Positions 1,082 through 29,417 of a stretch of 32,120 nucleotides of DNA are shown here, one piece after another. Each line of letters starts with the position of its first letter. Position 1 is the stretch's first letter. The notes under the pieces are model-generated. The model made no database searches, had not been told where the DNA came from, and saw only the letters and a program-made list of their open reading frames with translations. The DNA lies in the NCBI GenBank assembly GCA_028066985.1, contig JALCBB010000009.1, forward strand, positions 1 through 32,120. The letters are read 5' to 3'. The DNA is from Alphaproteobacteria bacterium. Lineage in GTDB: Bacteria; Pseudomonadota; Alphaproteobacteria; JALCBB01. The position numbers and the translations under genes are program-made.

Positions 1082-1642
1082 ATGCCTGCCTCCCCGCCTC
1101 GCTCTCGTCCGCGCATTACTCACGGAGACGCGCGGGTTCTTGACGACCTCGCGGAGATCATCCGCCGCCGCGAGGGCGCGCCGCGCTCGGAGTCCTACAC
1201 CGCCCGCCTTCTCGCCGACGGCGAACCGCGCATTGTCCGCAAACTGCTTGAGGAGGCGAACGAGACCGCGCTCGCGGCGCTGCTTGAGTCGCGCGCGGCG
1301 CTTTGCCGCGAGAGCGCCGACCTTCTCTACAACCTTCTGGTTTTGTGGCATGCGCGCGGCATTTCTCCCGAGGAGGTCTGGAAGACGCTCGCCGACCGCG
1401 ACGCCGCCCACGACACCGCCGCGGTTAAATCTGAGACGACGACAACGGCGCGCGGCAAGGTCAAGGGGAAGACCAGGACGACAACCACGGCGGGCGTCCA
1501 AAAAGTCAAACGCAAGTCCGGGACGACGACAACGACGCGCGGCAGGGTTAAGGTCAAGGGGAAGACCGGGACGACAACGACGGCGCGCGTCCGGAAAGCC
1601 GGCGGCAAAAAAGTCCCGGCGAAACGCAAAGGAAAGGGCTGA
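1082..1642 (+). CDS. hisE: Phosphoribosyl-ATP pyrophosphatase HisE with a long basic tail
   Basis: HisE hydrolyses phosphoribosyl-ATP to phosphoribosyl-AMP, the second step of histidine synthesis. Residues about 14-110 form the normal domain, with ARLLADGEPRIVRKLLEEA and the acidic, helical RESADLLYNLLVLWHARGI segment typical of the all-alpha MazG-like fold. A stand-alone HisE is usually around 90-110 residues, whereas this one has 186. The excess is a C-terminal tail of about 70 residues rich in Thr, Lys, Arg and Gly built from repeated units (see the repeat feature). A GTG at 1052 would add ten residues without family support. The HIT gene starts 3 bases after the stop, so the two are probably co-translated. 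The function call is firm; the role of the tail is unknown. Confidence 0.9.
   Translation: MPASPPRSRPRITHGDARVLDDLAEIIRRREGAPRSESYTARLLADGEPRIVRKLLEEANETALAALLESRAALCRESADLLYNLLVLWHARGISPEEVWKTLADRDAAHDTAAVKSETTTTARGKVKGKTRTTTTAGVQKVKRKSGTTTTTRGRVKVKGKTGTTTTARVRKAGGKKVPAKRKGKG
1432..1620 (+). repeat. In-frame degenerate repeats encoding the HisE tail
   Basis: The segment consists of imperfect units made of GACGACRACAACG-like runs, a GCGCGCGKC stretch and GGTCAAGGGGAAGACC (present twice, near 1459 and 1553). They encode repeated blocks such as KGKT-TTTT-ARV. Units stay in frame through to the hisE stop, which suggests expansion under reading-frame constraint. Confidence 0.75.
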
Positions 1643-1645
1643 CCG

Positions 1646-2008
1646 ATGGCATACGACGACCAGAACATCTTCGCGCAGATCCTCGCCGGCAAGATTCCGT
1701 GCAAGGAGGTCTACAAAGACGAGCATGTCCTCGCCTTTCACGACATTCAGCCGCAGGCGCCTGTGCATGTGCTGTTTCTGCCGCGCGGCGCCTACGAGTC
1801 CTCGCAGGACTTCTACGCCTCCGCTTCGCCCGGGGAGATCACCGCCCTCGCGCGCGCCGTCGCGGCTGTCGCCGAACGGCTCGGCGTTGTGAAGGGCGGC
1901 TATCGTCTGATCTCCAACCACCGTCACTACGCCGGACAGGAGGTGCCGCACTTTCACATTCACCTTCTCGGCGGCGCGCCCCTCGGCCCGATGACGAGCG
2001 GAAAATGA
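1646..2008 (+). CDS. HIT-family purine nucleotide hydrolase (HinT-like)
   Basis: A 120-residue histidine-triad protein. Members of the HinT branch bind purine nucleotides and hydrolyse phosphoramidates such as AMP-lysine. The N-terminal NIFAQILAGKIPCKEVYKDE and the C-terminal triad in PHFHIHLLGG are both classical, and the length matches the family. The start at 1646 follows the hisE stop by 3 bases, with a purine-rich AAAGGAAAGGG stretch just upstream. HIT genes often follow hisE in proteobacteria, so the neighbourhood agrees. The physiological substrate is not evident from sequence. Confidence 0.93.
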   Translation: MAYDDQNIFAQILAGKIPCKEVYKDEHVLAFHDIQPQAPVHVLFLPRGAYESSQDFYASASPGEITALARAVAAVAERLGVVKGGYRLISNHRHYAGQEVPHFHIHLLGGAPLGPMTSGK

Positions 2009-2026
2009 GCGGCGCATGAGCGACAC

Positions 2027-2851
2027 ATGAGCGGACAGATCAAGGTCGCCGTCGCCGGCGCGAACGGACGCATGGGATGCCTCCTCGTGCGGCGCGCCCT
2101 CGCCGAGGACGACCTGAACCTTGTCGGCGTCCGCGAGAGCGAGCGCAATCTCGCCGAACTGGAAAAAAATCTTCGCGGACAGACGACCGAACCCGTCGCC
2201 GTCTCCTCCGACCCGCGCGTCGCGTTCGGAGACGCCGAAGTTGTCATTGATTTTTCTATTCCCGCCGCTGTCGCCGACAACATTAATGCCGCCGCCGCTC
2301 TCGGAGCCGCTGTCCTTGTCGGCGTGACCGACATTGACGACGCCGCCCGCGCCGCCTTTCCCGGGATTGCTGAAAAGATTCCGCTTCTTGTCGCGCCGAA
2401 CACGAGTCTGGGAGTCGCGGCTCTCGCGCGTCTTGTCCGCGCCGCCGCCGATCTTTTTGACCACGACTGGGACGCCGAAATTCTGGAAATGCATCACCGC
2501 CGCAAGCGGGACGCTCCGTCCGGCACGGCGATGCTGCTCGCCGCCGCCGCCTCCGCTTCCGACGGACGCCACCCCCGCCGCCTTCAGGCGTCGCCTTCGC
2601 GTGACGGCGAACGCGGCCGCGGCGATATCGGCTTCGCGGTTTTGCGCGGCGGCAGTGTTGCCGGCGAACACGAGGTGATTTTCGCGGGCGCGGGCGAGCG
2701 CGTTTCTCTTTCGCACCGCGCGCAGGACAGGGGACTTTTCGTCAATGGCGCGATTTCCGCCGCGCGCTGGCTTGCGCGGCAGCCGCCCGGCCTTTACAGC
2801 ATTGACGACACCTTTAATGTCGCTTCGGACAGAGAAGGCGGACAGTCATGA
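2027..2851 (+). CDS. dapB: 4-hydroxy-tetrahydrodipicolinate reductase DapB
   Basis: DapB reduces 4-hydroxy-tetrahydrodipicolinate with NAD(P)H in the lysine/diaminopimelate pathway. The 274-residue protein has the Rossmann motif VAVAGANGRMG at the N-terminus, the catalytic HHRRKRDAPSGTA (His156-His157 and Lys160), and the C-terminal RGGSVAGEHEV and LSHRAQDRGLFVNGA segments. The length is normal. Three ATGAGCG triplets stand in a row before it (2005, 2015 and 2027); the last gives the family-length protein. Its 3' end has been copied twice downstream (see the next two entries), and its stop overlaps the first copy by ATGA. Confidence 0.95.
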   Translation: MSGQIKVAVAGANGRMGCLLVRRALAEDDLNLVGVRESERNLAELEKNLRGQTTEPVAVSSDPRVAFGDAEVVIDFSIPAAVADNINAAAALGAAVLVGVTDIDDAARAAFPGIAEKIPLLVAPNTSLGVAALARLVRAAADLFDHDWDAEILEMHHRRKRDAPSGTAMLLAAAASASDGRHPRRLQASPSRDGERGRGDIGFAVLRGGSVAGEHEVIFAGAGERVSLSHRAQDRGLFVNGAISAARWLARQPPGLYSIDDTFNVASDREGGQS

Positions 2852-2943
2852 TTGTCAATTCGCACAGGGCGCGGGACAAGGGACTTTTCACCGTCGCCGT
2901 CGCCCCCGTCCCCGTTGAAGACAGAGGAGGCGGGCAGTCATGA
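2848..2943 (+). pseudogene. First duplicated dapB 3'-end fragment (31-residue ORF)
   Basis: This ORF starts inside the dapB stop (ATGA overlap) and encodes NSHRARDKGLF... ending EDRGGGQS. DapB itself contains SHRAQDRGLF and ends REGGQS. The unit therefore looks like a copy of the dapB tail from which the middle part has been deleted and partly replaced by a Val/Pro-rich stretch. It ends with a purine-rich GAGGAGGCG before the next ATG, so coupled translation is possible. It may be only a linker left by tandem duplication; no function is claimed. Confidence 0.6.
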
Positions 2944-3041
2944 CTTTTAATTCGCGCGGAACGCGGGACAGCGGACCTTTCATCGGCGGCGCCGTTCCCG
3001 TTCCCGTTGAAGACAGAGGAGGCGAAAATCGTGGTCGCTAA
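2940..3041 (+). pseudogene. Second duplicated dapB 3'-end fragment (33-residue ORF)
   Basis: This follows the first copy with another ATGA overlap and again reads NSRGTRDSGPF... then PVPVEDRGGEN. Its 3' part overlaps the start of comM and contains the comM ribosome site GAGGAGG. The two copies are about 92 bp apart, and the PVPVEDRGG block is nearly identical in both. The tandem structure is clear; translation is not proven. Confidence 0.55.
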
Positions 3042-4623
3042 AACCTGGTCGGTCGCGTTCAGCGGCGTGCGCTCGCTGCCGGTGGAGGTTCAGGTTTCGC
3101 TCGCGTCGGGACTGCCGTCGTTCGTCATCGTCGGACTCGGCGACAAGCCCGTCGCCGAAAGCCGCGAGCGCATCCGCGCCGCGCTCGAGGCGAGCGGACT
3201 CAAACTGCCGCCGAAGCGCATCGTGGTCAATCTCGCGCCCGCCGACCTCGTCAAGGAGGGCAGTCATTTTGACCTGCCGATCGCGCTCGCCCTGCTCGCG
3301 TCCATCGGCGTGATTGAGAGCGAGCCGCTCGCCGGAATCCTCGCGCTCGGCGAACTCGGTCTCGACGGACGCATCGCCCCGGTCAGCGGCATTCTTCCCG
3401 CCGCCTTCGCCGCGCAGGAGGCGCGCCGGCGCCTGATCTGTCCGCGTCCGCAGGCGCACGAGGCGTCGCTGGTTGAGGGACTTGAATACTGCGCCGCCGA
3501 GTCTCTCGCCGAGATAGTTTCGCATTTCGCGCCGGGGGTTGAGTCGGTGTCGCCGTTTGTGCGGAGCGGCGGGGCCGAGTGGCCTCCGAGGTCTGACGGC
3601 GCGCATTCGGGCGGCGAGCCGGCCGTCGCGGCGCCGCGCGACCTCGCCGAGGTCAAGGGACAGGAAATGGCGCGCCGCGCGCTTGAGGTCGCGGCGGCGG
3701 GCGGACACAACATGCTTTTGATCGGCCCGCCCGGCGCGGGCAAGTCTTTGCTGGCGCATGCCTTGCCGGGGATTTTGCCGCCGCTTGTGGTGTCGGAGGC
3801 GCTGGAGATTTCCAAGATTCACTCGCTGGCGGGCACTCTTTTAAACGGCGGACTGATTTCGTCGCGTCCGTTTCGCGATCCGCATCACTCGGCTTCGCTG
3901 GCGGCGCTGGCGGGCGGAGGGGCGCGGGCGCGTCCTGGCGAGGTTTCGCTGGCGCATCGCGGCGTTCTTTTTCTGGACGAACTGCCGGAGTTTTCGCGTT
4001 CCACGCTTGAGGCTTTGCGCCAGCCGATGGAGGTCGGCGAGGTCACGGTGTCGCGGGCGTCGGCGCATGAGACGTATCCGGCGCGATTTCAGCTGGTGGC
4101 GGCGATGAATCCGTGTCGCTGCGGGGAGTTCGGCATTGTGTCGCGGCACTGCGGACGTGCTCCGCGCTGCGCGCGCGAGTATCAGGCGCGTGTTTCGGGT
4201 CCGTTGCTGGACAGGATAGACATTCATGTTGAGGTTGCGGCGGTTCCGCCTGTTGAGCTGGCGGCGCGGCGCGGCGGCGAGTCGTCGGCGGTGGTGGCGG
4301 AGCGTGTGCTGGGCGCGCGCGCGGTGCAGACTGAGCGCGCGCGGCGTGTCGGCGGCGGCGACGGCGCGGCGCCGCATTGCAATGCCGAGTTGGAGGGCGA
4401 GGCGCTTGAGGTTTTCTGCGCTTTGGACAAGAAGGCGCATAGTGTTCTGGCGCGTGCGGCGGAGCGCTATCGTTTATCGGCGCGCGGCTGGAATCGGATT
4501 TTGCGTGTTGCGCGGACGATTGCTGATCTGGAGGGCGAGGAGCGGATCACGGCGGTGGGTGTGGCGGAGGCGCTGGAGTGGCGCCGCAAGGAGTGGGGCG
4601 ACTCTGCGGCCGCGCCCCCTTAG
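3031..4623 (+). CDS. comM: ComM/YifB-family Mg-chelatase-like AAA+ ATPase
   Basis: ComM is a hexameric helicase that promotes branch migration during integration of transformed DNA. The protein has 530 residues. It has the N-terminal Lon-like domain (PVAESRERIRAAL, NLAPADLVKEGSHFDLPIAL), Walker A GPPGAGKSLLA, Walker B GVLFLDELPEF, and the C-terminal Mg-chelatase part with a CRCGEFG cysteine cluster. The frame is open from a TTG at 3007, but the GTG at 3031 has an AGGAGG about 9 bases upstream and matches the family N-terminus. It is the last gene of the hisF run. Coding-strand composition turns strongly G-rich toward the 3' end. About 90 bp of unassigned sequence separate the stop from R1 copy b. 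Confidence 0.93.
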   Translation: MVAKTWSVAFSGVRSLPVEVQVSLASGLPSFVIVGLGDKPVAESRERIRAALEASGLKLPPKRIVVNLAPADLVKEGSHFDLPIALALLASIGVIESEPLAGILALGELGLDGRIAPVSGILPAAFAAQEARRRLICPRPQAHEASLVEGLEYCAAESLAEIVSHFAPGVESVSPFVRSGGAEWPPRSDGAHSGGEPAVAAPRDLAEVKGQEMARRALEVAAAGGHNMLLIGPPGAGKSLLAHALPGILPPLVVSEALEISKIHSLAGTLLNGGLISSRPFRDPHHSASLAALAGGGARARPGEVSLAHRGVLFLDELPEFSRSTLEALRQPMEVGEVTVSRASAHETYPARFQLVAAMNPCRCGEFGIVSRHCGRAPRCAREYQARVSGPLLDRIDIHVEVAAVPPVELAARRGGESSAVVAERVLGARAVQTERARRVGGGDGAAPHCNAELEGEALEVFCALDKKAHSVLARAAERYRLSARGWNRILRVARTIADLEGEERITAVGVAEALEWRRKEWGDSAAAPP

Positions 4624-4718
4624 TTTCTGGCGCGGGTGACGCGGCGCGCTTTGTTCCACGGGATGCATTGACCCTGCCGCCTTTCTGCCCTTTAGGAGAC
4701 AGACGAAGCACGGTCTCC

Positions 4719-4810
4719 GGCATTAGTGGGCGTTAAAATTCAGACTAGCCACGACAGCGGCTCAAGCGAGCGATGCCGGCAGATGGGTGCGGGCTAGCCC
4801 GCAAAAAATT
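4719..4810 (+). repeat. R1 dispersed repeat, copy b
   Basis: GGCATTAGTGGGCG opens the copy at 4719 and GCGGGCTAGCCCGC plus an A-tract closes it. Immediately upstream (4693-4718) is the conserved R1 flank TTTAGGAGACAGACGAAGCA. No facing partner is visible downstream. It lies between comM and the first accessory stretch. Confidence 0.9.
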
Positions 4811-4910
4811 AAAATTTGTTTCAAAGATTTCGTTGACGCCGCCGTGATTTTGTCTGATTTCCGCGCAATTTTTGGGTTTGCGGGAACAAATTTAATCCAC
4901 AATCAAGGTG

Positions 4911-4938
4911 TTGCGTTTGTCTGTTTTTGTGGTAGATT
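4911..4938 (+). promoter_or_regulatory. Possible sigma70 promoter before the SIR2 remnant/TPR gene
   Basis: TTGCGT, 16 bases, TAGATT. The ATG at 4946 would lie almost at the transcription start, so the transcript would be nearly leaderless unless another promoter is used. The sequence 4811-4910 is AT-rich and I see no gene in it. Confidence 0.35.
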
Positions 4939-4945
4939 CGGAGTT

Positions 4946-5089
4946 ATGCAGGTTATCTCAGGTGCCCCCAATGTTCCTGACCGCTTATTACACGCACACG
5001 AAGAGGGGCAGGCGGTCTTTTTCTGCGGCGCGGATGTATCCGTTCCCGCGGGCCTCCCTCCTGTTCGCCCGATAAGGACACCCCGCTAA
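4946..5089 (+). pseudogene. SIR2-like domain N-terminal remnant
   Basis: A 47-residue ORF carries ISGAPNVPDRLLHAHEEG and then VVFF-type FFCGADVSVPAGLP. This closely resembles the start of SIR2-like NAD-binding domains, where FFCGAGVS-PAGLP forms the nucleotide loop. Here the invariant Gly of GAG is Asp, and the frame ends soon after in an unrelated RPIRTPR tail. The rest of the domain is missing. The stop TAA overlaps the ATG of the downstream TPR gene (TAATG), so a SIR2-TPR protein or operon may have lost its enzymatic part by deletion. SIR2-like domains coupled to other modules are known anti-phage NADases. This copy cannot be active. Confidence 0.6.
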
Positions 5090-6432
5090 TGCCAGAAAAC
5101 AACGACAACGGCGACAAAAAATCCCGATCGAATAATCTGGTAGACTTGGCTCAAGGGGCAGTTGAGCGGGGCAATTTTGATGACGCGATAGGAGTTTGCA
5201 GCGATGCAATTAAGATGGATCCTGAAAATGCCGATGCATTCCGCACTCGTGGACTGGCATACGAAAGGAAGGGCGAGTATGACCGTGCCATTGAAGACCT
5301 CAATAAGGCGATTGAATTAAACCCTGACCACGCCAGGGCGTACAAAAATCGCGGGAATACCTACTCTGACAAGGGGGAGTATGATCTCGCCATCGCGGAT
5401 TTCAACAAGGCCATTGAGCTGAATCCTGACTATGCGAAGGCATACAACAATCGTGGGAATGCCTATCATGGCAAGAAGGAATATGATCGCACCATCGCAG
5501 ACTACAGCAAGGCGATCGAACTGGATCCTGGCTTCGCCAGAGCGTACTATAATCGCGGAAATACCTACGATAAGAAGGGAGAGTATGATCTCGCCATCGC
5601 AGACTTCAGCAAAGCGATCGAACTGAAGCATGACTACGCCAACGCGTACAATAATCGTGGAAATATCTACGGGAAGAAGGGTGAACATGACCTCGCTATC
5701 CAGGATTATGACGAGGCAATTGATCTGAATCCCGGCCACACAGCCGCTCACCACAATCGCGCATTGTCGATAGAACAGAAAAGTGCTCAGAGAATCGCCG
5801 AGGAGTATAAAAGACGGTCTGACGAGCAGTTAAAAGAGGCTCTCGACAAGCGTGAACAGGATCTCAGGGAACTGCTTTCCCGCTACGAGGCTCCTGAAAA
5901 AGTCGTGAAGCGCTTTCTTGACAGGGAAGAAAAGTACACTTCCTTGGTTGACGCGCTGGACAAAGAGGTAAAAGAGTTCTCCGCCTCTTTGCCAGTCCGT
6001 CTTTGCAAACAAGCGGGATTCCCTGTTGTGGCGCTCTCTCTTTTGCTCTTGGCACTCTCTTTTGCGCTCCGGGCAGAATCCTCTTATTTATGGATTTTGC
6101 TGCCCCTGTTGCCTCTGACTCTGGCGGTGCTTTCGTATCCGTCCATTAGTCATCTGCGGCATCTGCGAGAAAAGAGAAATCGGCTTGAGGTGTGCCGGGA
6201 GGACTATTTCCGCAAGGGAACCATGGCGGAATACATCATCTTCGCCGGAATCAGCGATGACAGCAAGAAGCACCAGGCAATAGCCGTATTCCTGAGCCAC
6301 CTTGGTGACAGGAGCGCCGCCGAATTCTTGTCTGAGTGGAAAAAACCCGTAAAAGACGATGGCAAGGTTTTGCTGAAAAACATCCTTGAGGCAACTCCTC
6401 TGGAACAGTCCAAAAAAGACGATTCGCCTTAG
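5089..6432 (+). CDS. TPR protein with two C-terminal membrane segments
   Basis: The 447-residue protein opens with six near-consensus 34-residue tetratricopeptide repeats (about residues 16-219, e.g. KGEYDLAIADFNKAIELNPD-YAKAYNNRG). A charged helical stretch (about 220-300) with likely coiled-coil character follows. Two hydrophobic segments come next (about 311-329 and 334-354), then a soluble tail of about 90 residues. TPRs bind partner proteins, so this is probably a membrane-anchored scaffold; no enzymatic motif is visible. The repeats are very similar to one another, pointing to recent internal duplication. It overlaps the SIR2 remnant by one base and is followed by a shorter paralogue. 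Codon use is less GC-biased than in the housekeeping genes, which fits horizontal origin. Function unknown. Confidence 0.85.
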   Translation: MPENNDNGDKKSRSNNLVDLAQGAVERGNFDDAIGVCSDAIKMDPENADAFRTRGLAYERKGEYDRAIEDLNKAIELNPDHARAYKNRGNTYSDKGEYDLAIADFNKAIELNPDYAKAYNNRGNAYHGKKEYDRTIADYSKAIELDPGFARAYYNRGNTYDKKGEYDLAIADFSKAIELKHDYANAYNNRGNIYGKKGEHDLAIQDYDEAIDLNPGHTAAHHNRALSIEQKSAQRIAEEYKRRSDEQLKEALDKREQDLRELLSRYEAPEKVVKRFLDREEKYTSLVDALDKEVKEFSASLPVRLCKQAGFPVVALSLLLLALSFALRAESSYLWILLPLLPLTLAVLSYPSISHLRHLREKRNRLEVCREDYFRKGTMAEYIIFAGISDDSKKHQAIAVFLSHLGDRSAAEFLSEWKKPVKDDGKVLLKNILEATPLEQSKKDDSP

Positions 6433-6443
6433 TCTTCGGAATT

Positions 6444-6453
6444 CTGCTATAGT
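6444..6453 (+). promoter_or_regulatory. Possible extended -10 promoter before the second TPR gene
   Basis: TGCTATAGT gives a TGn extended -10 hexamer about 20 bases before the ATG at 6474. There is no good -35. The leader GGGACACCCGATG resembles that of the upstream TPR gene and of the gene at 12491. Confidence 0.35.
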
Positions 6454-6473
6454 GGCTCAGGAAGGGACACCCG

Positions 6474-7064
6474 ATGCCAGAGAACAACCACAAAGACGAC
6501 CTGCAAGCCCGAGCGCACGAACTGCTGGAGCGGGCCGAAGAGGCGATCGAGCGGAGCGACTTTGACCGCGCGACAGCCCTCTGCACCGAGGCGATCGGGC
6601 TGAACTCCGATAATTACCAGGCGTACCACATGCGCGGAGTGTGTCGCGTGGAGAGGGGCAAGCACGACGCCGGAGTGAATCTCCGCAGCAAGGTGCTGAA
6701 ACTTGATCCGACGATAATGAAGGGCGAGTATGAACTCGCCATCGAGGACTTCAACAAGGCGATTGAGATCGGCCGGTATTATCCCCGGGCGTATCACAGT
6801 CGCGGGCTGGCGTATATGCTGAAGGGCGACTTCAAGCGCGCCATCGCGGACTACGACAGGGTGATTGCTATGAATCCCAGAAATGTGGATGCCTACCGCG
6901 ACCGCGGCCTGGCTTATGTGCTGAAGGGCGACATCCCCCGCGGCATTGAGGACTACAACAAGGCGATGGAGATGACCATCACTCCGAACAAGCCCCGCTT
7001 GAACTCGTGGACACACCACCTGGAGACCGCCGAAGAAGAAGCGGCGGAATTCCAAGGCAAATAA
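6474..7064 (+). CDS. Short TPR protein, paralogue of the preceding gene
   Basis: The first codons (MPENNHKDD) match those of the preceding TPR gene (MPENNDNGD), and the upstream leader is also alike, so the pair arose by duplication. The 196 residues hold about four TPR units (LLERAEEAIERSDFDRA..., KGEYELAIEDFNKAIEI, KGDFKRAIADYDRVIAM, KGDIPRGIEDYNKAMEM). Between units one and two the spacing is irregular (GVNLRSKVLKLDPTIM), which suggests an internal deletion. No membrane segment or catalytic motif is seen. A purine-rich GGAAGGG precedes the ATG at a good distance. The gene ends 16 bp from the 3' end of the convergent methyltransferase gene. Likely a protein-binding adaptor; partner unknown. 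Confidence 0.8.
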   Translation: MPENNHKDDLQARAHELLERAEEAIERSDFDRATALCTEAIGLNSDNYQAYHMRGVCRVERGKHDAGVNLRSKVLKLDPTIMKGEYELAIEDFNKAIEIGRYYPRAYHSRGLAYMLKGDFKRAIADYDRVIAMNPRNVDAYRDRGLAYVLKGDIPRGIEDYNKAMEMTITPNKPRLNSWTHHLETAEEEAAEFQGK

Positions 7065-7080
7065 ATTGCGTTGTATTCGC

Positions 7081-8286
7081 TTACTGCCGCAAACCTTCTC
7101 GCCGGAGCTGAGCCACGAGGTAGGGCATGTCATTGGGGCCCTTCTTGCGGTTGCATGCGCCGCAAAGCAGCTGCTTGTTGCTGTCGTCCTCCGAGCCGCC
7201 TTTTGACGCCGGAATGATGTGATCCACCTCCAGATTGCGGAATTGAAAGTGCATGAGACAGCCGTTGCATTTACCCTCCTGCTGACCGTAGAGGGTGTGC
7301 TTGATATCCCTTGAGCGCTTGACGTTTTTGTCCTTCGGCGGCTTGTCGAGGTGTATCACGGCGTTTGCGAAGAGGGACCCTATCCCCCCCTCTTCGCGCG
7401 GCTTGTGGAGTCTCTCTTTCACGATGTTGAAGGCGAGTTCGGACACATCGATCCCGATCCATTCCCTGCCTTCGTCTTCGGCGGCGACGCAGGCGGTGGC
7501 GCACCCGCAGAACGGGTCGAGCACCATGTCGCCCTCATTGCTGGATGCCCTTACGATGCGGCGCAAAAGTTCCAGGGGTTTTTGCGTCGGGTATCCCGTG
7601 TATTCTTTGGTGCTTCGGGGCGCGATGCGCATCTCCCACCAGGTTTCCGGGACCTTGCCCTTTTTGCCGTACTCTTCGACATCATCTTTGTCCATTCCGT
7701 ACCCGCCGACATGCGGCTTGCCGCCCTTGTACGGGATTCTGACATCATCGGAGTTGAACGCCCACTTCGCGCCCTTGCTGTACCACAGGATGATGTCGTG
7801 CTTGCGGTTGAACTGTCTCATTCCCGGCGAGCCGGGTCCTGTGTAGCACCAGACGATTTCATTCCGGAAGCTGTTTCCGCCGAAGATTGTATCCATCATG
7901 AGTTTGACGGAGTGGCTCATTGTCGGGTCGCAGTGGTAGTAGATGCTTCCCGTATTTTTGAGGATGCGGTGCATTTCGAGCAGTCGGGTCGCCATATAAA
8001 TGGAGTAGGACATATTGCTGCCCCCGCCGGCCGCGCCGATGGCTTCTATCACGGTGTAGAGTTTCGGTTGCACGTCGGCGATTTCGCCCCACCAGGCGAG
8101 GTCGGTGTCGGTGAGGCGCCACACATCTTTGAACGACGCGCCTTCGGCTTTGCTGCCGATGGGGGCTTCGTAGTATTTGTTGGAGTTGAAGGGGGGGTCG
8201 AGGTAGATGAGGTCGACGGTTTCGTCTGCCATTCCCCGCATGATTGGCAGGTTGTCGCCTGTGAAAATTGTGCGATTTTTAACCAC
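7081..8286 (-). CDS. Beta-class DNA methyltransferase fused to an HNH domain
   Basis: The 401-residue protein joins two parts. Residues 1-295 are an amino-methyltransferase of the N6-adenine/N4-cytosine superfamily. Catalytic motif IV (DPPF, residues 30-33) precedes the AdoMet-binding motif I (DPFCGCATA, 257-265), the order of the beta class. Residues about 338-382 are an HNH/zinc module with CNGC, the LEVDHIIPASKGG core, LLCGAC and N379. DPPF favours N6-adenine methylation. The HNH may cut DNA or only bind it, so this could be a one-protein restriction-modification enzyme or a solitary methylase; no separate endonuclease adjoins it. The start is GTG with GAGGAG about 8 bases upstream, preceded by a plausible promoter at 8350-8378. 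Confidence 0.88.
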   Translation of the reverse strand: MVKNRTIFTGDNLPIMRGMADETVDLIYLDPPFNSNKYYEAPIGSKAEGASFKDVWRLTDTDLAWWGEIADVQPKLYTVIEAIGAAGGGSNMSYSIYMATRLLEMHRILKNTGSIYYHCDPTMSHSVKLMMDTIFGGNSFRNEIVWCYTGPGSPGMRQFNRKHDIILWYSKGAKWAFNSDDVRIPYKGGKPHVGGYGMDKDDVEEYGKKGKVPETWWEMRIAPRSTKEYTGYPTQKPLELLRRIVRASSNEGDMVLDPFCGCATACVAAEDEGREWIGIDVSELAFNIVKERLHKPREEGGIGSLFANAVIHLDKPPKDKNVKRSRDIKHTLYGQQEGKCNGCLMHFQFRNLEVDHIIPASKGGSEDDSNKQLLCGACNRKKGPNDMPYLVAQLRREGLRQ

Positions 8287-8493: not shown

Positions 8494-8820
8494 ATGTTTC
8501 GCGCGAAACATTAAAATTTGCCGGAGAGTGATCTTGGGCATTAGTGGGCGTTTGACTAAGACATTCACGGTGTCGGCTCAAGCGAGCGGCACCCACTGAT
8601 GCCTGTCGGCGCTGCCGACAAAAAAAATAAAAAATGTGAATTTTTAATGTTTCGCGCGAAACAATTGGCGGCGGGGTTAATGTTTCACGCGAACCGCAGG
8701 TCGCCAAACATTAGACGGGCAGCCGCGCCACCCTCCCAATTGTTTCGCGTGAAACATCGAGGACGGAGACGACGAGTGGCGGGGGGCGGCAGGGCGTCGG
8801 TGATGTTTCGCGCCAAACAT
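8494..8820. repeat. Palindrome cluster A (parS-like 16-mers)
   Basis: Sites of the form TGTTTCNCGNGAAACA occur at 8495-8510 and 8648-8663 (core CGCGCG) and at 8741-8756 (CGCGTG). A one-arm mismatch copy (GCCAAACA) is at 8804-8819. A longer interrupted variant at 8681-8712 reads TGTTTCACGCGAACCGCAGG and then TCGCCAAACA. The established bacterial parS consensus is TGTTTCACGTGAAACA; the best sites here differ from it by one base. The last four sites lie between facing R1 copies c and d. Confidence 0.85.
8537..8628 (+). repeat. R1 dispersed repeat, copy c
   Basis: GGCATTAGTGGGCG opens at 8537. The inner inverted arm CCCACTGATGCC is intact, and the terminal hairpin is TGTCGGCGCTGCCGACA with an A-tract. 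It faces copy d, about 190 bp away, giving a 374-bp composite with R1 as terminal inverted repeats. Confidence 0.9.
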
Positions 8821-8821
8821 T

Positions 8822-8910
8822 AATTTTTTTGCGGGCGGCGCCCGCAGGCATCAGTGGGGATCGCTCGCTTGAGCCGACATCGTGGCTAGTCCAGAATTCA
8901 CGCCTGCTGA
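8822..8910 (-). repeat. R1 dispersed repeat, copy d
   Basis: The T-tract and GCGGGCGGCGCCCGC hairpin lie at the left end and match the inner end of R1. The outer end has diverged (GGCATTAG replaced by a CAGCAGGCG-like sequence). It pairs face to face with copy c. Confidence 0.85.
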
Positions 8911-9070
8911 AATTTGAATTAATATTTAAATATTATGAATTTATTCGCAGCCCTGATACTGGCTCCGCGCCACAGGAGCGATTTTACTAACAGGTTTTCA
9001 ACAGAATTTTAACAGCCGCTCCGACAGATTTGTTAACAAATTTTCAGCAATTAACGGACAGAATAGTCTT
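8905..9070. other. AT-rich non-coding stretch between repeat clusters
   Basis: An AT-rich run (TTAATATTTAAATATTATG near 8921-8939) is followed by several TTAACA/TTGTTAACAA motifs (8999-9035). One DnaA-box-like nonamer TTTTCAACA (8994-9002) has a mismatch. No open frame is supported. The combination with parS-like sites invites comparison with a replication or partition locus, but no clear DnaA-box array is present. Confidence 0.4.
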
Positions 9071-9098
9071 CGGCATCAGCGGACGCAGACTTTTAACC
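9071..9098 (+). repeat. Partial R1 outer end
   Basis: GGCATCAGCGGACGCAGAC then TTTTAA resembles the fragment at 133-165 and the first third of R1. The hairpins are missing. Confidence 0.45.
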
Positions 9099-9117
9099 CT
9101 CAAAACAGCGCCCCGGC

Positions 9118-9180
9118 TTGAAAACGCCGACACCCGTCCCCATATAACTTCTGAAAAAAGCGGAGTCGGAGCCCCCCCTC
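9118..9180 (+). repeat. P2 repeat module, copy 2
   Basis: TTGAAAACGCCGACACCCGT then a degenerate CATATAACTTCTG and the conserved AAAAAAGCGGAGTCGGAG. It is the outer edge of the left arm of the inverted repeat around ubiA-gshA. Confidence 0.8.
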
Positions 9181-9214
9181 CCCCCATCTCCCGCTACTGG
9201 CCTCCCCTGTCGCG

Positions 9215-9416
9215 ATGTTTCGCGCGAAACATCCGGCACTCCCGCCAGACCAAAAAAACACACTTTTTTAATGTTTCGCGTGAAACATTAACCCCGCCCC
9301 CAATTGTTTCGCGCGAAACATTGGACGGACAGCCGCGCCGCCCCCTCCCCAGTCGCCCCGCAGATCAAAAAACGCGTCTTTTTAATGTTTCGCGCGAACC
9401 GCAGGTCGCCAAACAT
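9215..9416. repeat. Palindrome cluster B (parS-like 16-mers)
   Basis: Perfect sites are at 9216-9231 and 9305-9320 (core CGCGCG) and at 9272-9287 (CGCGTG). An interrupted variant is at 9386-9416. From 9300 to 9420 the sequence is close to the reverse complement of 12020-12135, including the spacer with GATCTGCGGGG and the A-tract/T-tract around ACGCGT. The cluster ends about 60 bp beyond the 3' end of ubiA. Confidence 0.88.
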
Positions 9417-9478
9417 TAAGGCGGAGCCTTCGCTAAATGCCGTCCTTCGCCGTCTCCATCGCCGGAGATCGCGCCGAT

Positions 9479-10402
9479 TTAACTCCCGAAAAGCAGAAAT
9501 ACCCAGAAAACCAGAGCGGCGCGCGGCTGCCTCCGAAAATCCGCCAGCGCCGCCGCCGGCTCCGGCGCACCCCCGGCCGGCAGACGACCCGCGCACCGCA
9601 ACAAAGCAAACACCATCCAACCCCACCCCAGCCACACAAACCACACCACTCCCGAAAAAACAAGCGCGCAAGCCCACAACACCGCCGCCAGAATAAAACA
9701 TCCCGCCACAAAATAACGAATCCGCCCCCCGAACAACCGCGCCAGCGAGCGCACTCCGACCCGCTCGTCGTCCTCGAGGTCGGCGGAGGCGTACAGGGTG
9801 TCGTATCCCAGGGTCCAGAAGAAGGCGCCGCCGTAGAGAAACCACACCGCCGCCGAAACCAGACTCTCGCCCGCCGCGACCCATCCGAGAAGCGCGCCCC
9901 AGTTGAAAACAAACGCCAGGAACGCCTGCGGCCACCAGACAATCCGCTTCATCCGCGGATACGCGAAGATCAGCGGCAGCGCCGCGCATCCGAGGAGGAT
10001 CGCGTCCGCCGGCAGCGCGAGCAGCACCTCGGCGCCGATCACGAGCAGCAGCAGCAGAAAGATCACCGCCCCGCGCGCGCCGACATGTCCCGCCGCCAGC
10101 GGACGCTCCGCCGTGCGCGCGATCTGCCGGTCGAGGTCGCGGTCGGCGAGGTCGTTGACGACGCATCCCGCCGCGCGCATCACGACGGCGCCGAACAGAA
10201 AAAGCAGATACAGCCCGACATCGGCGCTGCCGGCGAGGGCGAGCGCCCACCATCCCGGCAGCAGCAGCAGCAGCCAGCCGACCGGACGGTCAAGCCGCGC
10301 CAGACTGATCCACGGACGCAGCGCCGCCGGCGCGTGCGCGAGCAGGAGGCCCTCAAAGCGGATGTCGCTCGCGTCAGGTTTTTTGTCTTCGGGAGTTCCC
10401 AT
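9479..10402 (-). CDS. ubiA: 4-hydroxybenzoate polyprenyltransferase UbiA
   Basis: UbiA attaches the polyprenyl tail to 4-hydroxybenzoate in ubiquinone synthesis, in the inner membrane. The 307-residue protein has the two Asp-rich substrate/Mg sites: NDLADRDLD (residues 83-91) with RPLAAG just after, and YASADLEDDERVGVRS in the second half. Hydrophobic segments are spread along its length, as expected for the 8-9-helix fold. A TTG at 10411 would add three residues; the ATG at 10402 is preferred. Near its 3' end the coding strand becomes extremely G/T-rich (9600-9700). It is divergent from gshA and followed by repeat cluster B. Confidence 0.92.
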   Translation of the reverse strand: MGTPEDKKPDASDIRFEGLLLAHAPAALRPWISLARLDRPVGWLLLLLPGWWALALAGSADVGLYLLFLFGAVVMRAAGCVVNDLADRDLDRQIARTAERPLAAGHVGARGAVIFLLLLLVIGAEVLLALPADAILLGCAALPLIFAYPRMKRIVWWPQAFLAFVFNWGALLGWVAAGESLVSAAVWFLYGGAFFWTLGYDTLYASADLEDDERVGVRSLARLFGGRIRYFVAGCFILAAVLWACALVFSGVVWFVWLGWGWMVFALLRCAGRLPAGGAPEPAAALADFRRQPRAALVFWVFLLFGS

Positions 10403-10479
10403 TGTCTGCAAGTGGTGCTATTGAATGAGTGAGCCGTTGTTGTCGCTGTCCTTTAACCAGCCTTCCCGCCGCGAAGAGT

Positions 10480-11910
10480 ATGCCATTCCCGACGCCAGAA
10501 GACGAGATCACCCGCGCCGAACAGCTCGTGGAATGGATCGCGAGCGGCGCGAAGCCGTCTGCGCGGCGGCGGATCGGCAGCGAGCATGAGAAGTTTCCCT
10601 ACTGGCGCGCGACTCGCGAGCCGCTCGGATGGCGCGAGGCTGACGGCGCCGGCCTCGCGGATTTCCTGGCGCGTCTCGCGTCCGCCGGCGGCTGGGAGGC
10701 GCGCTGCGAAGACCATGACGGCGAGCGTGTGCCGGTGGCGCTGCTGCGCGGCGGCGCGTCGGTGACGCTGGAGCCGGGCGGACAGGTCGAGTTGTCGGGC
10801 GCCCCGCGCGCCGACCTCAACGCGGTCGCGCGCGAGATTGATGATTTTCTGGCGGAGTCCGGAGGGCTGGCGTCCGAGTCGGGCGCGGCGTTTCTGGGGA
10901 TGGGCGCGCCGCCCGAGTGGTCGTTGTCGCGGATGCCGCGCATTCCGAAGGGGCGTTATTCCACGATTCGTCCTTACATGCGTCTTCAGGGACGCAGCGG
11001 TTATGACATGATGCATCGCTCCTGCACGGTGCAGGTGAATCTGGATTTCACGGACGAGGCGGATTTTGTCGTGATGTTCCGGGTCATTCTGGGTTTGCAG
11101 CCTGTGGCGACGGCGTTGTTCGCGAACTCGCCGTTTCTGGACGGCGACGAGAGCGGTTTCGCGTCGCGGCGCATGGATTTCTGGCGCGAGACGGACGCGG
11201 CGCGCTGTCTCCCGCCGGACTTCATGTTTGAGGACGGCGCCGGTTATGAGCGCTGGACGCGTTATGCTTTGGGGGTGCCGATGTATTTTGTGCGTCGCGG
11301 CGGTTCGCATGTTGATGTGACGGGGGCGTCGTTCGGCGACTTCATGGCCGGACGGGAGGAGCGTTTGTCGGGAGTGCGTCCGTGTCTTGGCGACTGGGAT
11401 GATCATCTGACGACGATTTTCACGCCTGTGCGGGCGAAGCGCTGGCTGGAGATTCGCGATGCTGACGGCGCGTGTTCGGGGATGCTGGCGGCGCAGGCGG
11501 CGTTCTGGGTCGGACTTTTGTATGACGCGGAGGCGAAGGCGCGTTGTCTTGAGGCGGCGACGGCGGCGACTTCGGCGGAGCGTGACGCGATGCGTTATGC
11601 GGCGTTGCGTTACGGGATGGCTGGGGGCGTGCCTGAGTCTCTGGCGCGGGCGCTGGACGCGGGACGCGGCGCGGGCGAGTCCGGGGTTTCGGGGAGTGGT
11701 GACGGCGCGCGGTTTCGGGATGTGGTGCCGGTGCTGCTGGAGATTTCGCGCGGCGGCTTGGAGCGCCGTGGTTTAGGGGAGGAGAGGTTTTTGGATCCGC
11801 TGTGGCGTCTGGCGGATATGGGGTTATCGCAGGCGGAGCGGCGTCTGGGCTTGTGGCGTGGTGAATGGCGCCGTGATTTCGCCCCTCTTTACGAAGACGC
11901 TTCTTGTTAG
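10480..11910 (+). CDS. gshA: Glutamate-cysteine ligase, plant/alphaproteobacterial class
   Basis: GshA joins glutamate and cysteine with ATP in the first step of glutathione synthesis. The 476-residue protein carries IGSEHEKFPYW near the N-terminus. It also has the highly conserved block GRYSTIRPYM, MMHRSCTVQVNLDFTDEADF and ATALFANSPFLDG, then VPMYFVRRGG and the HVDVTGASFGDF segment. This is the class found in plants and alphaproteobacteria rather than the E. coli class. The frame extends upstream to a GTG at 10429, but the ATG at 10480 agrees with the family start. It is divergent from ubiA with about 75 bp between the starts. The stop codon is followed at once by the flank of R1 copy e. Confidence 0.93.
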   Translation: MPFPTPEDEITRAEQLVEWIASGAKPSARRRIGSEHEKFPYWRATREPLGWREADGAGLADFLARLASAGGWEARCEDHDGERVPVALLRGGASVTLEPGGQVELSGAPRADLNAVAREIDDFLAESGGLASESGAAFLGMGAPPEWSLSRMPRIPKGRYSTIRPYMRLQGRSGYDMMHRSCTVQVNLDFTDEADFVVMFRVILGLQPVATALFANSPFLDGDESGFASRRMDFWRETDAARCLPPDFMFEDGAGYERWTRYALGVPMYFVRRGGSHVDVTGASFGDFMAGREERLSGVRPCLGDWDDHLTTIFTPVRAKRWLEIRDADGACSGMLAAQAAFWVGLLYDAEAKARCLEAATAATSAERDAMRYAALRYGMAGGVPESLARALDAGRGAGESGVSGSGDGARFRDVVPVLLEISRGGLERRGLGEERFLDPLWRLADMGLSQAERRLGLWRGEWRRDFAPLYEDASC

Positions 11911-11929
11911 GGGACGAAGTGCTGTCTGT

Positions 11930-12022
11930 GGCATTAGTGAGAGTTTGACTAAGACATTCACGGTACCGGCTCAAGCGAGCGATCCCCACTGATGCCTGCG
12001 GGCGCCGCCCGCAAAAAAATTA
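11930..12022 (+). repeat. R1 dispersed repeat, copy e
   Basis: GGCATTAGTGAGAG opens at 11930, preceded from the gshA stop onward by the flank TTAGGGGACGAAGTGC. The copy ends with the GCGGGCGCCGCCCGC hairpin, an A-tract and TTAA, and runs directly into palindrome cluster C. No facing partner is present. Confidence 0.9.
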
Positions 12023-12308
12023 ATGTTTGGCGACCTGCGGTTCGCGTGAAACATTAAAAAAGCGCGTTTTTTTGATCTGCGGGGTGACAGGAGAGGGGGC
12101 GGCTGTCCGTCCAATGTTTCACGCGAAACAATTGGCGATGCCCCCTCATTTGTCCAATGTTTGGCGACCTTCGGTTCACGAGAAACATATCCCCCCTGCC
12201 CCCCATTCGTCGTCTGTCCAATGTTTCACGAGAAACATCCCTTAATGTTTCGCGCGAAACATTAAAAAATTCAATGTTTTCAGTCTTTCGATGTTTCGCG
12301 CGAAACAA
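12023..12308. repeat. Palindrome cluster C (parS-like 16-mers)
   Basis: Interrupted variants are at 12023-12054 and 12157-12188. Full 16-mers are at 12115-12130 (core CACGCG), 12222-12237 (CACGAG), 12246-12261 and 12292-12307 (CGCGCG). The site at 12246 extends to a perfect 24-bp palindrome bounded by TTAA on both sides (12242-12265). The order interrupted site, palindromes, P2 is the mirror image of 9118-9416. Confidence 0.88.
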
Positions 12309-14156: not shown

Positions 14157-14313
14157 TCTTATGCCTCTCGGCGGGCGGGGATGCGGTTTTTGTTCGGTTT
14201 TCCACCGTTTATTGATTCCCCGCCTGCCTGGAATCAAAATTTCCCCTGGATTGTCCGGGCCTGTCGTGCTATCCTCGGCGAATCGCAACGAGGAGAAAAC
14301 CACCGGCACCAAA

Positions 14314-15303
14314 ATGGCGATCGCAGGCGAGCAGCACACTTTGGACATCCCGAGTCCGCCAAGGCGCAAGAGCGCGAGATCCGAGCAGGTCTACCGAAAG
14401 GAGATGTTCCTGAGCCGGCAGCGCTCGCCCGCCGGACGCATCCCCTACAAAAGATACCTCGGCGCGCCCATTCGCTACGCGGGAGGAAAAAGCCTGGCGA
14501 CCGGAATCATCATCGAGCAGATTCCGGGCGACATACGGCGCCTCGTGTCGCCGTTCATCGGCGGCGGATCAATTGAGGTCGCCTGCGCCGTTGAAATCGG
14601 AATCCCCACCGTCGGATATGATGTGTTCGATGTCCTGACGACCTACTGGAAGGCGCAATTGCGGCATCCCGCCGCGCTTTACGAAAGGCTCTCCAGGTTC
14701 GAGGCGACTCCGGAAGAATTCCGCAGAGCCAAGGAGACCCTGCGCCAGCACTGGAAGAAGGAGAGGCGCGACCTGCACTGGCTGGATGTCGCCGCGCTTT
14801 ACTACTTCACGCACAACACCTCGTACGGCCCCGGCTTTCTCAGCTGGCCCTCCTACATCTACATGAACCAGGATCGCTACGAGAAGATGATCAAGAAGGT
14901 CGCGCAATTCGCCGCGCCGAATCTGACCGTGGAACAGGCGTCTTTCGAGACGGTGTTGCCGAAGCACCGAAACGACTTCCTGTACTGCGATCCTCCGTAC
15001 TATCTGGGGAGAGACACCAAAATGTTCCGCGGCATTTATCCGCAGCGGAATTTCCCCATCCATCACAACGGCTTCGACCACGCTCTTCTCAAGGACCTGC
15101 TCAACAGGCACAAAGGAGGCTTCCTGCTCTCGTATAACGACTGCCCGCAGATTCGGGAGTGGTATGCGGACTATGAGATTTCAACTCCGTCCTGGCAGTA
15201 TACGCTTGGTCAGGGAGAGACGCGCATCGGCAAGTATCGCCCGGACGGAAACCATGTGAAACAGTCGCACGAACTGCTTATCTATGCCCCGCCCGCAGCG
15301 TAA
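14314..15303 (+). CDS. D12-class (Dam-like) N6-adenine DNA methyltransferase
   Basis: The 329-residue protein has the alpha-class layout of Dam/DpnM enzymes: APIRYAGGKS (54-60) and PFIGGGSIEVA (80-90) form the AdoMet site near the N-terminus, and DPPY (226-229, in DFLYCDPPYYLG) is the catalytic motif later in the chain. It therefore methylates adenine N6 at a sequence I cannot predict. The frame is open from 14161, but the first 51 codons look like non-coding sequence; the ATG at 14314 is the first reasonable start, though the only GAGGAG is rather far upstream (near 14290). The next gene begins within or just after its stop and encodes a probable endonuclease, giving a type II restriction-modification pair. 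Confidence 0.88.
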   Translation: MAIAGEQHTLDIPSPPRRKSARSEQVYRKEMFLSRQRSPAGRIPYKRYLGAPIRYAGGKSLATGIIIEQIPGDIRRLVSPFIGGGSIEVACAVEIGIPTVGYDVFDVLTTYWKAQLRHPAALYERLSRFEATPEEFRRAKETLRQHWKKERRDLHWLDVAALYYFTHNTSYGPGFLSWPSYIYMNQDRYEKMIKKVAQFAAPNLTVEQASFETVLPKHRNDFLYCDPPYYLGRDTKMFRGIYPQRNFPIHHNGFDHALLKDLLNRHKGGFLLSYNDCPQIREWYADYEISTPSWQYTLGQGETRIGKYRPDGNHVKQSHELLIYAPPAA

Positions 15304-15310
15304 AAGAGCG

Positions 15311-16060
15311 ATGACTTCCAAGGCCGCTTCTGAAAAGAAGAGAGGCGGGCACAGGAAGGAGGACGAGTACGCCAGCCTCATCGGCGGAGAGGTTGAGACG
15401 GGCACCGAGAAGAAGGATGTCACAGATGCTCACGGCAGAGGGCACTCTGTGAAAGGGGGGAAGTATTCTCAGGTGTTTTTGTATTCCCGTGAACGCTTCG
15501 TGACAAACACGACATTCTGGGACATGGGATTGTCGCAGATTTTCATTGACTGCCTGGATGCGTTCCCGGATGGCTTCGATGTCTACAAAGCGGACAAATT
15601 TCGCTACAAAGAGCGGCTCAGGAAGCCGATGCGCGCGCTCGCCGACCGTCTGAACGAAGAGGGGATGCTGGAAAAATTCCTGAACAAGTCTTTTCTGGAG
15701 GCTGGCAGAGAAGATGACGGCAGGAGAGTGGATTTTCTCGCCATTAAGCGGGGAAGGATTTTCCATGTCTTCAAGGGACTTGAAGTCGGAAAAATTCTTG
15801 CGGATACCCTGCAGGTGAGAAATTCCGTGGGAAGGGGAAGCGGGCAAGTCTCGGATCAGAAGGTGCTGGTATGGCACGAGCGAAATGTGGGGGAAGTCGA
15901 GCTGCGGAACGACTCCTCCAGACATTATCGCCAGATGAAATTCCGCATGAATTTGCATCTGACAGCGGACCTCCTGATGGAGGGGCTGGGAGAGGGACAG
16001 GTCGTCAAGAATCGGGTGAGGGCGTATGGAGAGGCGACAAAAATTCCTTTTGTGCGCTGA
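15311..16060 (+). CDS. Probable type II restriction endonuclease
   Basis: A 249-residue protein encoded 7 bp after the methylase (an ATG at 15284, overlapping the methylase by 20 bp, is the alternative start). Near the N-terminus it has EVETGTEKKDVTDAHGRGHS followed by VKGGK, which fits a PD-(D/E)xK-type active site: Asp36/Asp39, then Ser46-Val-Lys48 in the place of (D/E)xK. QVFLYSRERF follows. The rest is a mixed alpha/beta protein without a named domain that I can recognise. The assignment rests on this motif and on the methylase partner. Recognition site unknown. If the (D/E) position is truly Ser, activity would need a variant metal site. Confidence 0.65.
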   Translation: MTSKAASEKKRGGHRKEDEYASLIGGEVETGTEKKDVTDAHGRGHSVKGGKYSQVFLYSRERFVTNTTFWDMGLSQIFIDCLDAFPDGFDVYKADKFRYKERLRKPMRALADRLNEEGMLEKFLNKSFLEAGREDDGRRVDFLAIKRGRIFHVFKGLEVGKILADTLQVRNSVGRGSGQVSDQKVLVWHERNVGEVELRNDSSRHYRQMKFRMNLHLTADLLMEGLGEGQVVKNRVRAYGEATKIPFVR

Positions 16061-24437: not shown

Positions 24438-24460
24438 AGAGACAACGAAGCGCGATATTT

Positions 24461-24550
24461 GGCATTAGTGGGAGTTAAATTCAGACATTCACGATAGCCG
24501 CTCAAGCGAACCGCACCCGCTGATGGCTGGCGGCACTGCCGCCAAAAAAA
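24461..24550 (+). repeat. R1 dispersed repeat, copy g
   Basis: Preceded by the full flank TTAAAGAGACAACGAAGCGC from 24434, which contains the copA stop. GGCATTAGTGGGAG opens the core, and GGCGGCACTGCCGCC plus A-tract closes it. It faces copy h. Confidence 0.9.
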
Positions 24551-28230: not shown

Positions 28231-29417
28231 CGCGCCGCGAGGGAGACAAAGCAGTCGTTCATTGAGCGGGCGAGCGAGTCGTAGAGGGCGAACCATGCGT
28301 CGGGGCCGAGAGGGATGCCGGCGCCGAGGGGGTCCGCTTCGGAGAGGCGCACATTCAGGCTTTCGGCGACTCCTGTACGCAGGAGCAGTTGCGGCTCGGC
28401 GAAAAAGCATACGGGCGCGAAGTCTGTCGCCGCTGTCTCCGTGTGTTCGTGGTCGTCCGCTTCCGCGTGTGTTTCTTCGTGACCGTGGTCGTCCCCGTCA
28501 CTCTCCGCGTGATCTTCTTCGCGGGCATGACCGTGGTCGTCTCCGTCCTCGTTCCCGTCCCCGCGCACTTCTTCGTGACCGTGACCGTGGTCGTCCCCGC
28601 CGTCCTCCGCGTGTGTTTCTTCGCGGGCATGACCGTGGTCGTCCCCGTCCTCGTCCCCGTGACCGTCTCCGTCCCCGCGCGCTTCTTCGTGACCGTGATC
28701 GTGATCGTCGCGTATATACTCGGCGATGGCGGCGCGGATTTCGCGGGCGTGGCGCGCGCCCGCGGGAACCTCGGGATTCTCGGTCAGGGCGCCGAGGGGA
28801 GCGATCCCCATCGCGTCGGTGAAGTAGCCGAGAGCGTCGTGGTGCGTGATGAAGGCGACGTCTTGATGCGTACGCATGCGTACGCGCCACTCGTCTTCAA
28901 GGGCGGCGGCGCGTACGGCGAAGGCGCGCGCGTTGCGGCTGTAGTCGTCAGCGTAGGACGGGTCAAGGCGGGCGAGGGTTTCGGCGATGCGGGTCGCCAT
29001 GACTCCGGCGTTTTCGGCCGAGAGCCAGATGTGCGGGTCGGCGCCGCCGCCGGAATACTCGCGGAAACGCATACGCGGATCCGTCAGAAGCGTCTCAACG
29101 CGTACACCCTCGGCGGCGCCTCTCAGGTTTTCCAGAGACGAGATGAGGCGTCCTTCAAGGGCGGGGCCGACGGCGAAGACCGCGTCGGCGTCCGCGACCG
29201 TCTGCGCGCGCGAGGGCTTCAACTGCGCGCCGTGCGGGGAGACTCCGGCGTCCAGCACGGTTTCGGGGGCGCCGCGGCCCTCCATGACGGCGGCGGCGAT
29301 GGCGGCGAGCGGGAAGATTGTCGCGGTCACTTGAGGGGGCGCGTCCTGGGCGGCGGCGGTGGTGGTGCCGAGGGCGAGGACGGCGAACAGTCCGATTAAA
29401 CGGCTGAATTTCAACAT
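28227..29417 (-). CDS. znuA: Periplasmic zinc-binding protein ZnuA with displaced His-rich insert
   Basis: ZnuA captures zinc in the periplasm for ZnuBC. The 396-residue precursor has a signal peptide (LIGLFAVLALGTTTAAAQDA). The expected zinc ligands are His62 (SPHG), His129 (DPHIWLS) and His193 (THHDALGYF). Residues 239-325 are a His/Asp/Glu-rich insert of repeated DGDDHGHAREE-like blocks with about 24 histidines. In ZnuA homologues the flexible His-loop normally lies between the first two ligands; here it sits after the third ligand in the C-terminal lobe. The start at 29417 has AAGGAG eight bases upstream; an extension to 29453 is unlikely. Transcribed from a promoter that contains a perfect 15-bp palindrome. 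Confidence 0.93.
   Translation of the reverse strand: MLKFSRLIGLFAVLALGTTTAAAQDAPPQVTATIFPLAAIAAAVMEGRGAPETVLDAGVSPHGAQLKPSRAQTVADADAVFAVGPALEGRLISSLENLRGAAEGVRVETLLTDPRMRFREYSGGGADPHIWLSAENAGVMATRIAETLARLDPSYADDYSRNARAFAVRAAALEDEWRVRMRTHQDVAFITHHDALGYFTDAMGIAPLGALTENPEVPAGARHAREIRAAIAEYIRDDHDHGHEEARGDGDGHGDEDGDDHGHAREETHAEDGGDDHGHGHEEVRGDGNEDGDDHGHAREEDHAESDGDDHGHEETHAEADDHEHTETAATDFAPVCFFAEPQLLLRTGVAESLNVRLSEADPLGAGIPLGPDAWFALYDSLARSMNDCFVSLAAR

Follow-up and report, generated by a model that had tools for sequence, protein, structure and literature searches.

Probable diverged parS palindromes in NIME-like mosaic arrays of an Alphaproteobacteria bacterium

The stretch of DNA analyzed here, 32,120 nt of contig JALCBB010000009.1 from an Alphaproteobacteria bacterium (hereafter the window), carries two arrays of 16-bp palindromes resembling parS, the site bound by the partition protein ParB. 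Are these an unusual parS read by a ParB of changed specificity, or a repeat that has come to mimic parS? We consider it reasonably probable that in these palindromes we see the parS of the lineage itself, with a changed base 6. This overall ParB-parS reading starts from what we observed: the copy number, the lack of canonical parS in the assembly, a residue change in ParB, the position at mnmG, the invariance of the arms and the mosaic structure of the arrays. The site may well act like parS, yet it is not canonical, in its core or in its copy number.

Sites in the window and across the genome

Using the pattern TGTTTCNCGNGAAACA, we observed ten exact matches in the window (8495, 8648, 8741, 9216, 9272, 9305, 12115, 12222, 12246 and 12292), and the sites form two groups, at 8495-9415 and 12024-12307. 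Four two-mismatch matches each belong to an interrupted 30-mer (8681-8710, 9386-9415, 12024-12053 and 12158-12187). At up to three mismatches the window holds 17 matches, compared to a mean of 1.49 and a maximum of 6 in 100 dinucleotide shuffles; the rest of the window has two three-mismatch matches (4652 and 12743), about chance level. The core ACGT is absent from all palindromes of the window. An earlier note on this DNA had described ten perfect-arm 16-mers, one near match and four interrupted variants, confined to two clusters and never with exactly CACGTG as core. The pattern search recovered all of these elements, and both statements hold, the second one also genome-wide. The elements are as follows, the palindromes being listed without strand.

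8495..8510, parS-like site, core GCGC, exact match
8648..8663, parS-like site, core GCGC, exact match
8681..8710, + strand, interrupted 30-nt element from the sequence: left site part, then an insert with an AAACA end
8741..8756, parS-like site, core GCGT, exact match
8804..8819, near match with a single altered arm base (one mismatch), pattern search
9216..9231, parS-like site, core GCGC, exact match
9272..9287, parS-like site, core GCGT, exact match
9305..9320, parS-like site, core GCGC, exact match
9386..9415, + strand, interrupted 30-nt element, from the sequence
12024..12053, - strand, interrupted 30-nt element, from the sequence
12115..12130, parS-like site, core ACGC, exact match
12158..12187, - strand, interrupted 30-nt element, from the sequence
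12222..12237, parS-like site, core ACGA, the sole such core among 135, exact match
12246..12261, parS-like site, core GCGC, exact match
12292..12307, parS-like site, core GCGC, exact match

The source genome is a 2.01 Mb draft of 199 contigs, with 95% completeness and 0.08% contamination, in which the arm pair TGTTTC / GAAACA occurs exactly 135 times. The cores split into 99 GCGC (TGTTTCGCGCGAAACA), 35 ACGC/GCGT and 1 ACGA. One or both halves have a G at base 6 in 134/135 sites, and the canonical core ACGT was found in 0/135 sites of the assembly. Canonical parS comes in few copies; here 127 of the 135 sites lie on 19 contigs, of which we took stretches for further analysis (193 kb including the window). 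When core variants and interrupted forms are included, these stretches hold 170 elements in 39 clusters, six of them single-element. The clusters occupy fewer contigs than in a random model, 39 clusters on 19 contigs against about 33 contigs expected; for up to 47 clusters, 38 contigs were expected and 27 or fewer were reached in a fraction 5e-5 of runs, in a model that assumes exponential lengths for the contigs not examined and treats neighbouring clusters as independent. We rejected an even dispersal of the sites on these numbers. The earlier note had proposed a genome-wide count mapped against oriC and parAB, and held that hundreds of evenly spread copies, or a canonical parS cluster elsewhere with no ParB binding in the window, would refute its reading. 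The copies are 135, clustered on fewer contigs than random under the assumed lengths, a canonical cluster is excluded within the 95%-complete assembly, and a different contig, which has its own sites, carries parAB. The note's suggestion of a special partition centre in the window did not survive the same count, since only 10/135 exact sites are located there.

Outside the source genome the element is rare. We found TGTTTCGCGCGAAACA in 1/398 genomes of the phylum, the source genome alone. In a search of relatives (96 genomes including our own), the other 95 carry 0-9 pattern sites each, which among the matches listed are canonical with the exception of one genome. A paired-site scan of genome contigs, from which the window's own genome may be left out, returned at least 119 stretches with, among the matches listed, 292 ACGT, 6 ACGG, 3 GCGT and 2 CCGT cores and no GCGC core. 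The only one of these listed stretches with G at base 6 lies on a Parcubacteria group contig (L164, 4525-4862) and has six parS-type sites, three GCGT and three canonical. Viral contigs gave 10 stretches with a single GCGC site apiece, about the chance number for such a collection by a rough estimate, and in none of the 10 is there another site or an interrupted copy. Plasmid DNA gave no match to the first window array. A literature search did not find TGTTTCGCGCGAAACA and, as judged by titles and the start of abstracts, returned no report of parS in such numbers or of a ParB with Ala201.

The partition operon and its ParB

We observed a single ParB in the genome (TIGR00180), which is also the only HTH_ParB protein found (PF17762), both searches being made at E up to 0.001. 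This protein of 402 aa (L017, 12193-13401) has a ParB_N domain (PF02195, 2.9e-35) and an HTH_ParB domain (PF17762, 2.5e-28), and its gene sits in an mnmG-rsmG-parA-parB operon. The parAB contig carries four exact palindromes (5300, 8076, 8530 and 8668) and a core variant at 8259; the palindrome at 8668 overlaps the predicted mnmG start codon, 44 bases before the GGGHAG motif of mnmG, and a second one lies 182 bases before this motif. The GGGHAG motif fell within the sequence taken from 13 relatives, and in 8 of these a canonical or near-canonical parS stands at -51 to -160. The remaining five are a same-family genome (G001) with no parS, one with the motif at the stretch edge, one with parS at -1666, one without parS in the stretch and one with parS downstream only. 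Since parS commonly stands before mnmG in relatives, the altered site occupies a usual parS place.

We then considered the residues of ParB that face the altered base, numbered after Jalal et al. 2020 (PMC7383237). In the available part of that paper, residue 201 of Caulobacter ParB sits at parS base 6, R173 and G201 are absolutely conserved across ParB orthologs, and the parS-specific variants selected at 201 were C, S, T or G (most preferred), Ala not being named. On alignment to the ParB-parS structure 6t1f, our Arg215 corresponds to the Arg of SRSH (R173) and our Ala243 to the Gly of AGHAR (G201): the arginine is retained and the glycine is replaced. The comparison of helix-turn-helix residues that the earlier note had proposed was made with 69 other ParBs, covering 69 of the 89 other genomes with a match, and gave Gly at the residue-201 equivalent in 68/69 and Ala in one, that of G001. 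Ala likewise replaces another contact residue, G170 (our A212), as in 2/69 other ParBs. A residue change at the base-6 position together with a changed base 6 points to co-evolution, without proving that Ala reads G. The note's idea of a diverged ParB specificity is supported by this indirectly, through an assembly with no canonical site and a single ParB with Ala at the altered-base residue. In addition, the GERRxR motif, which we take to be the CTP-binding motif, reads GERRWHAAG in this ParB, with His148 and Gly151 in 0/69 other ParBs. We speculate that this alteration might weaken ParB spreading; the available part of PMC8299390 has nothing on an altered residue of the CTP motif.

G001 was the sole same-family genome compared, and it has no match to the site pattern. 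Its matches to canonical parS are at three mismatches only, 5 compared to 9 for a reversed control, and it is without recognisable canonical parS. It contains exactly two copies of TGTTTATTGATAAACA genome-wide (search at up to one mismatch), at L059 14293 and 14409, both just upstream of mnmG. Its ParB has, besides Ala at 201, Leu at the position of Caulobacter R204, a residue that contacts parS (PMC7383237). As far as sequence can tell, TGTTTATTGATAAACA is a candidate parS of G001, and parS seems to be changing in this family.

Arm constraint, proposed mechanism and rival explanations

To what extent are the palindromes constrained? Over 146 simple elements (no more than one change in the arms and two in total, the core CG counted, a rule that limits arm changes per element), 6/1752 arm bases are changed. 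Bases 2-5 and 12-15 of the 16-mer are invariant, and at base 7, which is parS base 6, 115 elements carry G, 27 A and 4 T. The mismatch distribution shows two peaks, with 127 exact, 18 one-off, 33 two-off, 16 three-off and 61 four-off matches; 13 of the one-off changes fall in the core CG and 5 in the arms, 32/33 two-off matches are interrupted forms, and the four-off matches are at about the chance number by our own estimate. Of the 11 spacer families with at least three members, ten have a median pairwise identity of 82-97% and one reaches 100%, values biased upwards by keeping only pairs with 80% alignment coverage. In copies found through spacer homology, the adjoining in-register palindromes are perfect-armed or interrupted forms, including two divergent interrupted forms beside L018 16602 and L221 2052; the other rows with scores of at least 5, which reflect a shifted register or the end of an array, were left out of the count. 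In the parS-like arms we saw no compensatory or paired changes, unlike in the REP hairpins of the same DNA, so the constraint looks sequence-based, as for a protein-binding site, and a hairpin or RNA reading was set aside.

These observations are compatible with the following scenario. The canonical TGTTTCACGTGAAACA would have been altered at base 6 to give TGTTTCGCGCGAAACA, and the single ParB, with Ala replacing the conserved Gly at the base-6 residue, would nucleate on the altered palindrome. The copies at mnmG-rsmG-parA-parB would be direct descendants of an ordinary parS, with a role in chromosome partition. The site would then have become the delimiter of mosaic, mostly intergenic repeats (the 39 clusters), which would spread and reshuffle by inter-array recombination. 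The near-invariance of the arms may be due to selection, either for ParB binding or against sites that are half broken. The remote arrays could be extra loading sites, or tolerated passengers that stay intact since defective copies are harmful or corrected.

Several points weigh against a diverged parS. A is kept at base 6 of one half in 35/135 sites, and the ACGA site has G in neither half. G201, which is without a side chain, makes no specific contact with base 6 in the published structure (PMC7383237, available part), and the effect of Ala at this position is a guess. The Ala also occurs in G001, whose candidate site is another one, so the residue by itself does not specify G at base 6 and may be permissive, and the element is missing from G001, which makes cross-species conservation unusable. 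The arm invariance could stem from gene conversion or from preferential copying of intact palindromes, and ParB binding, partition function and mode of spread are what we infer. A second parS cluster in Caulobacter is best tolerated up to about 500 kb from ori and strongly disfavoured mid-arm (PMC5815017, available part), and 20-23 parS sites near the origin are the high end given in the part of a review available to us (PMC7333895); full activity of 135 sites would therefore be surprising. It is rather doubtful that the system is polycentric, with a ParB of a third natural specificity (G at base 6, Ala at residue 201) loading at dozens of dispersed arrays and partition and SMC loading extending beyond one origin-proximal cluster; that dozens of partition sites are active on one chromosome is possible, though less likely.

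The strongest rival, which we judge unlikely, sees the palindromes as nothing more than a NIME-like mosaic repeat whose parS likeness reflects convergence or the ancient capture of one parS, ParB using the parAB-adjacent copies alone or none and intact palindromes serving as substrate for copying or recombination. Spacers of 12-250 nt (n=118) fall into 49 groups, the biggest with 15, 12, 12 and 8 members, and these modules recur in varied orders and orientations. This alternation of palindromes and spacer modules recalls the Neisseria dRS3 and RS units (PMC9778887, available part). The 30 interrupted copies, which have a common 12-nt insert or a close variant, look like an element variant and not a binding site, and sites spread far outside the parAB contig. 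A purely repetitive origin leaves unexplained the presence of parAB without canonical parS in the assembly, the site at the mnmG start and the ParB change at the altered-base residue. Neither does it find its transposase: Y1 (PF01797) had 0 matches in our genome, while 5/14 control genomes were positive, so spread by RAYT is unlikely, and the arrays probably spread by recombination with one another. The palindromic repeat proposed as an alternative in the earlier note stands in so far as the sites lie in mosaic repeat arrays, and does not exclude a diverged ParB specificity.

We give a much lower probability to the sites being recognised by some other DNA-binding protein, for instance a regulator or an occlusion factor similar to Noc, with an accidental likeness to parS. 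Outside the window 141/156 elements lie outside open reading frames (ORFs) as roughly predicted, and the NBS sites of Noc are dispersed, many over the chromosome. However, the arms are those of parS and not of NBS, and the one HTH_ParB protein found (other DNA-binding families being unsearched) has Arg and not Gln at 173 and Ala and not Arg at 201. An assembly or binning artefact, in which repeat-rich contigs stem from another organism, is hardly credible even for a draft in 199 contigs, given the contamination of 0.08%, the sites on the parAB/mnmG contig and on apparent core-gene contigs (secY-like operon, ilv/leu-like genes, names from sequence only) and one REP family common to 17/19 contig stretches.

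This REP-like family has 83 hits in the 193 kb, as a 91-nt repeat ending in a hairpin and an A-tract, and is not in L220 and L223. In the window it lies at 8536-8626, 11929-12019, 24460-24550, 29656-29746, 32030-32120 and other positions. Its stems are conserved through paired changes (GCGGGC/GCCCGC, GCAGGC/GCCTGC and GTCGGC/GCCGAC). Between the two window arrays stand a UbiA-family gene and one for a GCS2-family glutamate-cysteine ligase.

8536..8626, + strand, 91-nt REP-like repeat within a spacer of the first array
9479..10411, - strand, UbiA-family prenyltransferase gene between the arrays (Pfam PF01040)
10480..11910, + strand, GCS2-family glutamate-cysteine ligase gene between the arrays, start codon provisional (Pfam PF04107)
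11929..12019, + strand, 91-nt REP-like repeat adjoining the second array

An Rfam search of the window gave no family at its threshold. In-frame tandem repeats inside window ORFs at 20912-21304 and 28443-28713 are Asp/Asn-rich and His/Asp/Glu-rich coding. Contig C165 (L223, 491-8169) contains an island of small genes whose gaps from 1345 to 8275 hold between one and three palindromes each; its proteins include two UzuA-like ones (E 9.8e-33 and 1.5e-33) and several without family match, and the island resembles an array of defence-gene cassettes. DNA methyltransferases and restriction enzymes lie beside or near several arrays, in the window (7081-8286 and 14161-16060), L018 (7017-10895), L221 (2234-3757) and L226 (3224-5000), among them N6/N4 and D12 methylases and, together with a HindVP-type enzyme, a C-5 methylase. 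L219 and L222 add a Fic and a PIN protein, respectively.

Comparison with known systems

ParB and parS form a protein-DNA pair that is conserved very widely, and Noc-NBS is the natural departure from it studied in PMC7383237 (available part). If our reading is true, site and residue at the changed base are both altered here, a natural test of the evolution of ParB specificity that would complement the laboratory selections of Jalal et al. The genome would also be an extreme case for the open questions on variation in parS number and drivers of clustering named in the available part of PMC7333895.

As with REP/RAYT elements, the palindromes are high-copy and intergenic; in contrast to them, sequence rather than hairpin pairing is conserved and no Y1 transposase was found in the genome. 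The likeness to Noc and its NBS (TATTTCCCGGGAAATA) is that of a ParB-family site departing from parS at base 6, the residue-201 base. Base 6 is G here and C in NBS, and base 1 is unchanged here (G), the arms being TGTTTC. The single HTH_ParB protein found has R173 and A201 and not the Q173 and R201 of Noc, and this sole ParB-type protein adjoins parA. NIME, RS units delimited by dRS3, share short palindromes that alternate with recurrent spacers, mostly intergenic and in high copy (PMC9778887, as far as available). Their delimiter is ATTCCC-N8-GGGAAT, while that of our arrays is TGTTTCNCGNGAAACA, a parS variant; the spacers are of other families, and the partition-operon copy looks like a true parS. 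With chromosomal parS the site has in common a 16-bp palindrome, identical arms, the mnmG-rsmG-parA-parB location and a chromosomal ParB and ParA. It differs by G at base 6 of at least one half in all but one site and by a copy number of 135, distributed over at least 19 contigs, where the species cited in PMC7333895 reach 20-23 origin-proximal sites at most. Taken together, the element is best called a diverged parS in NIME-like arrays.

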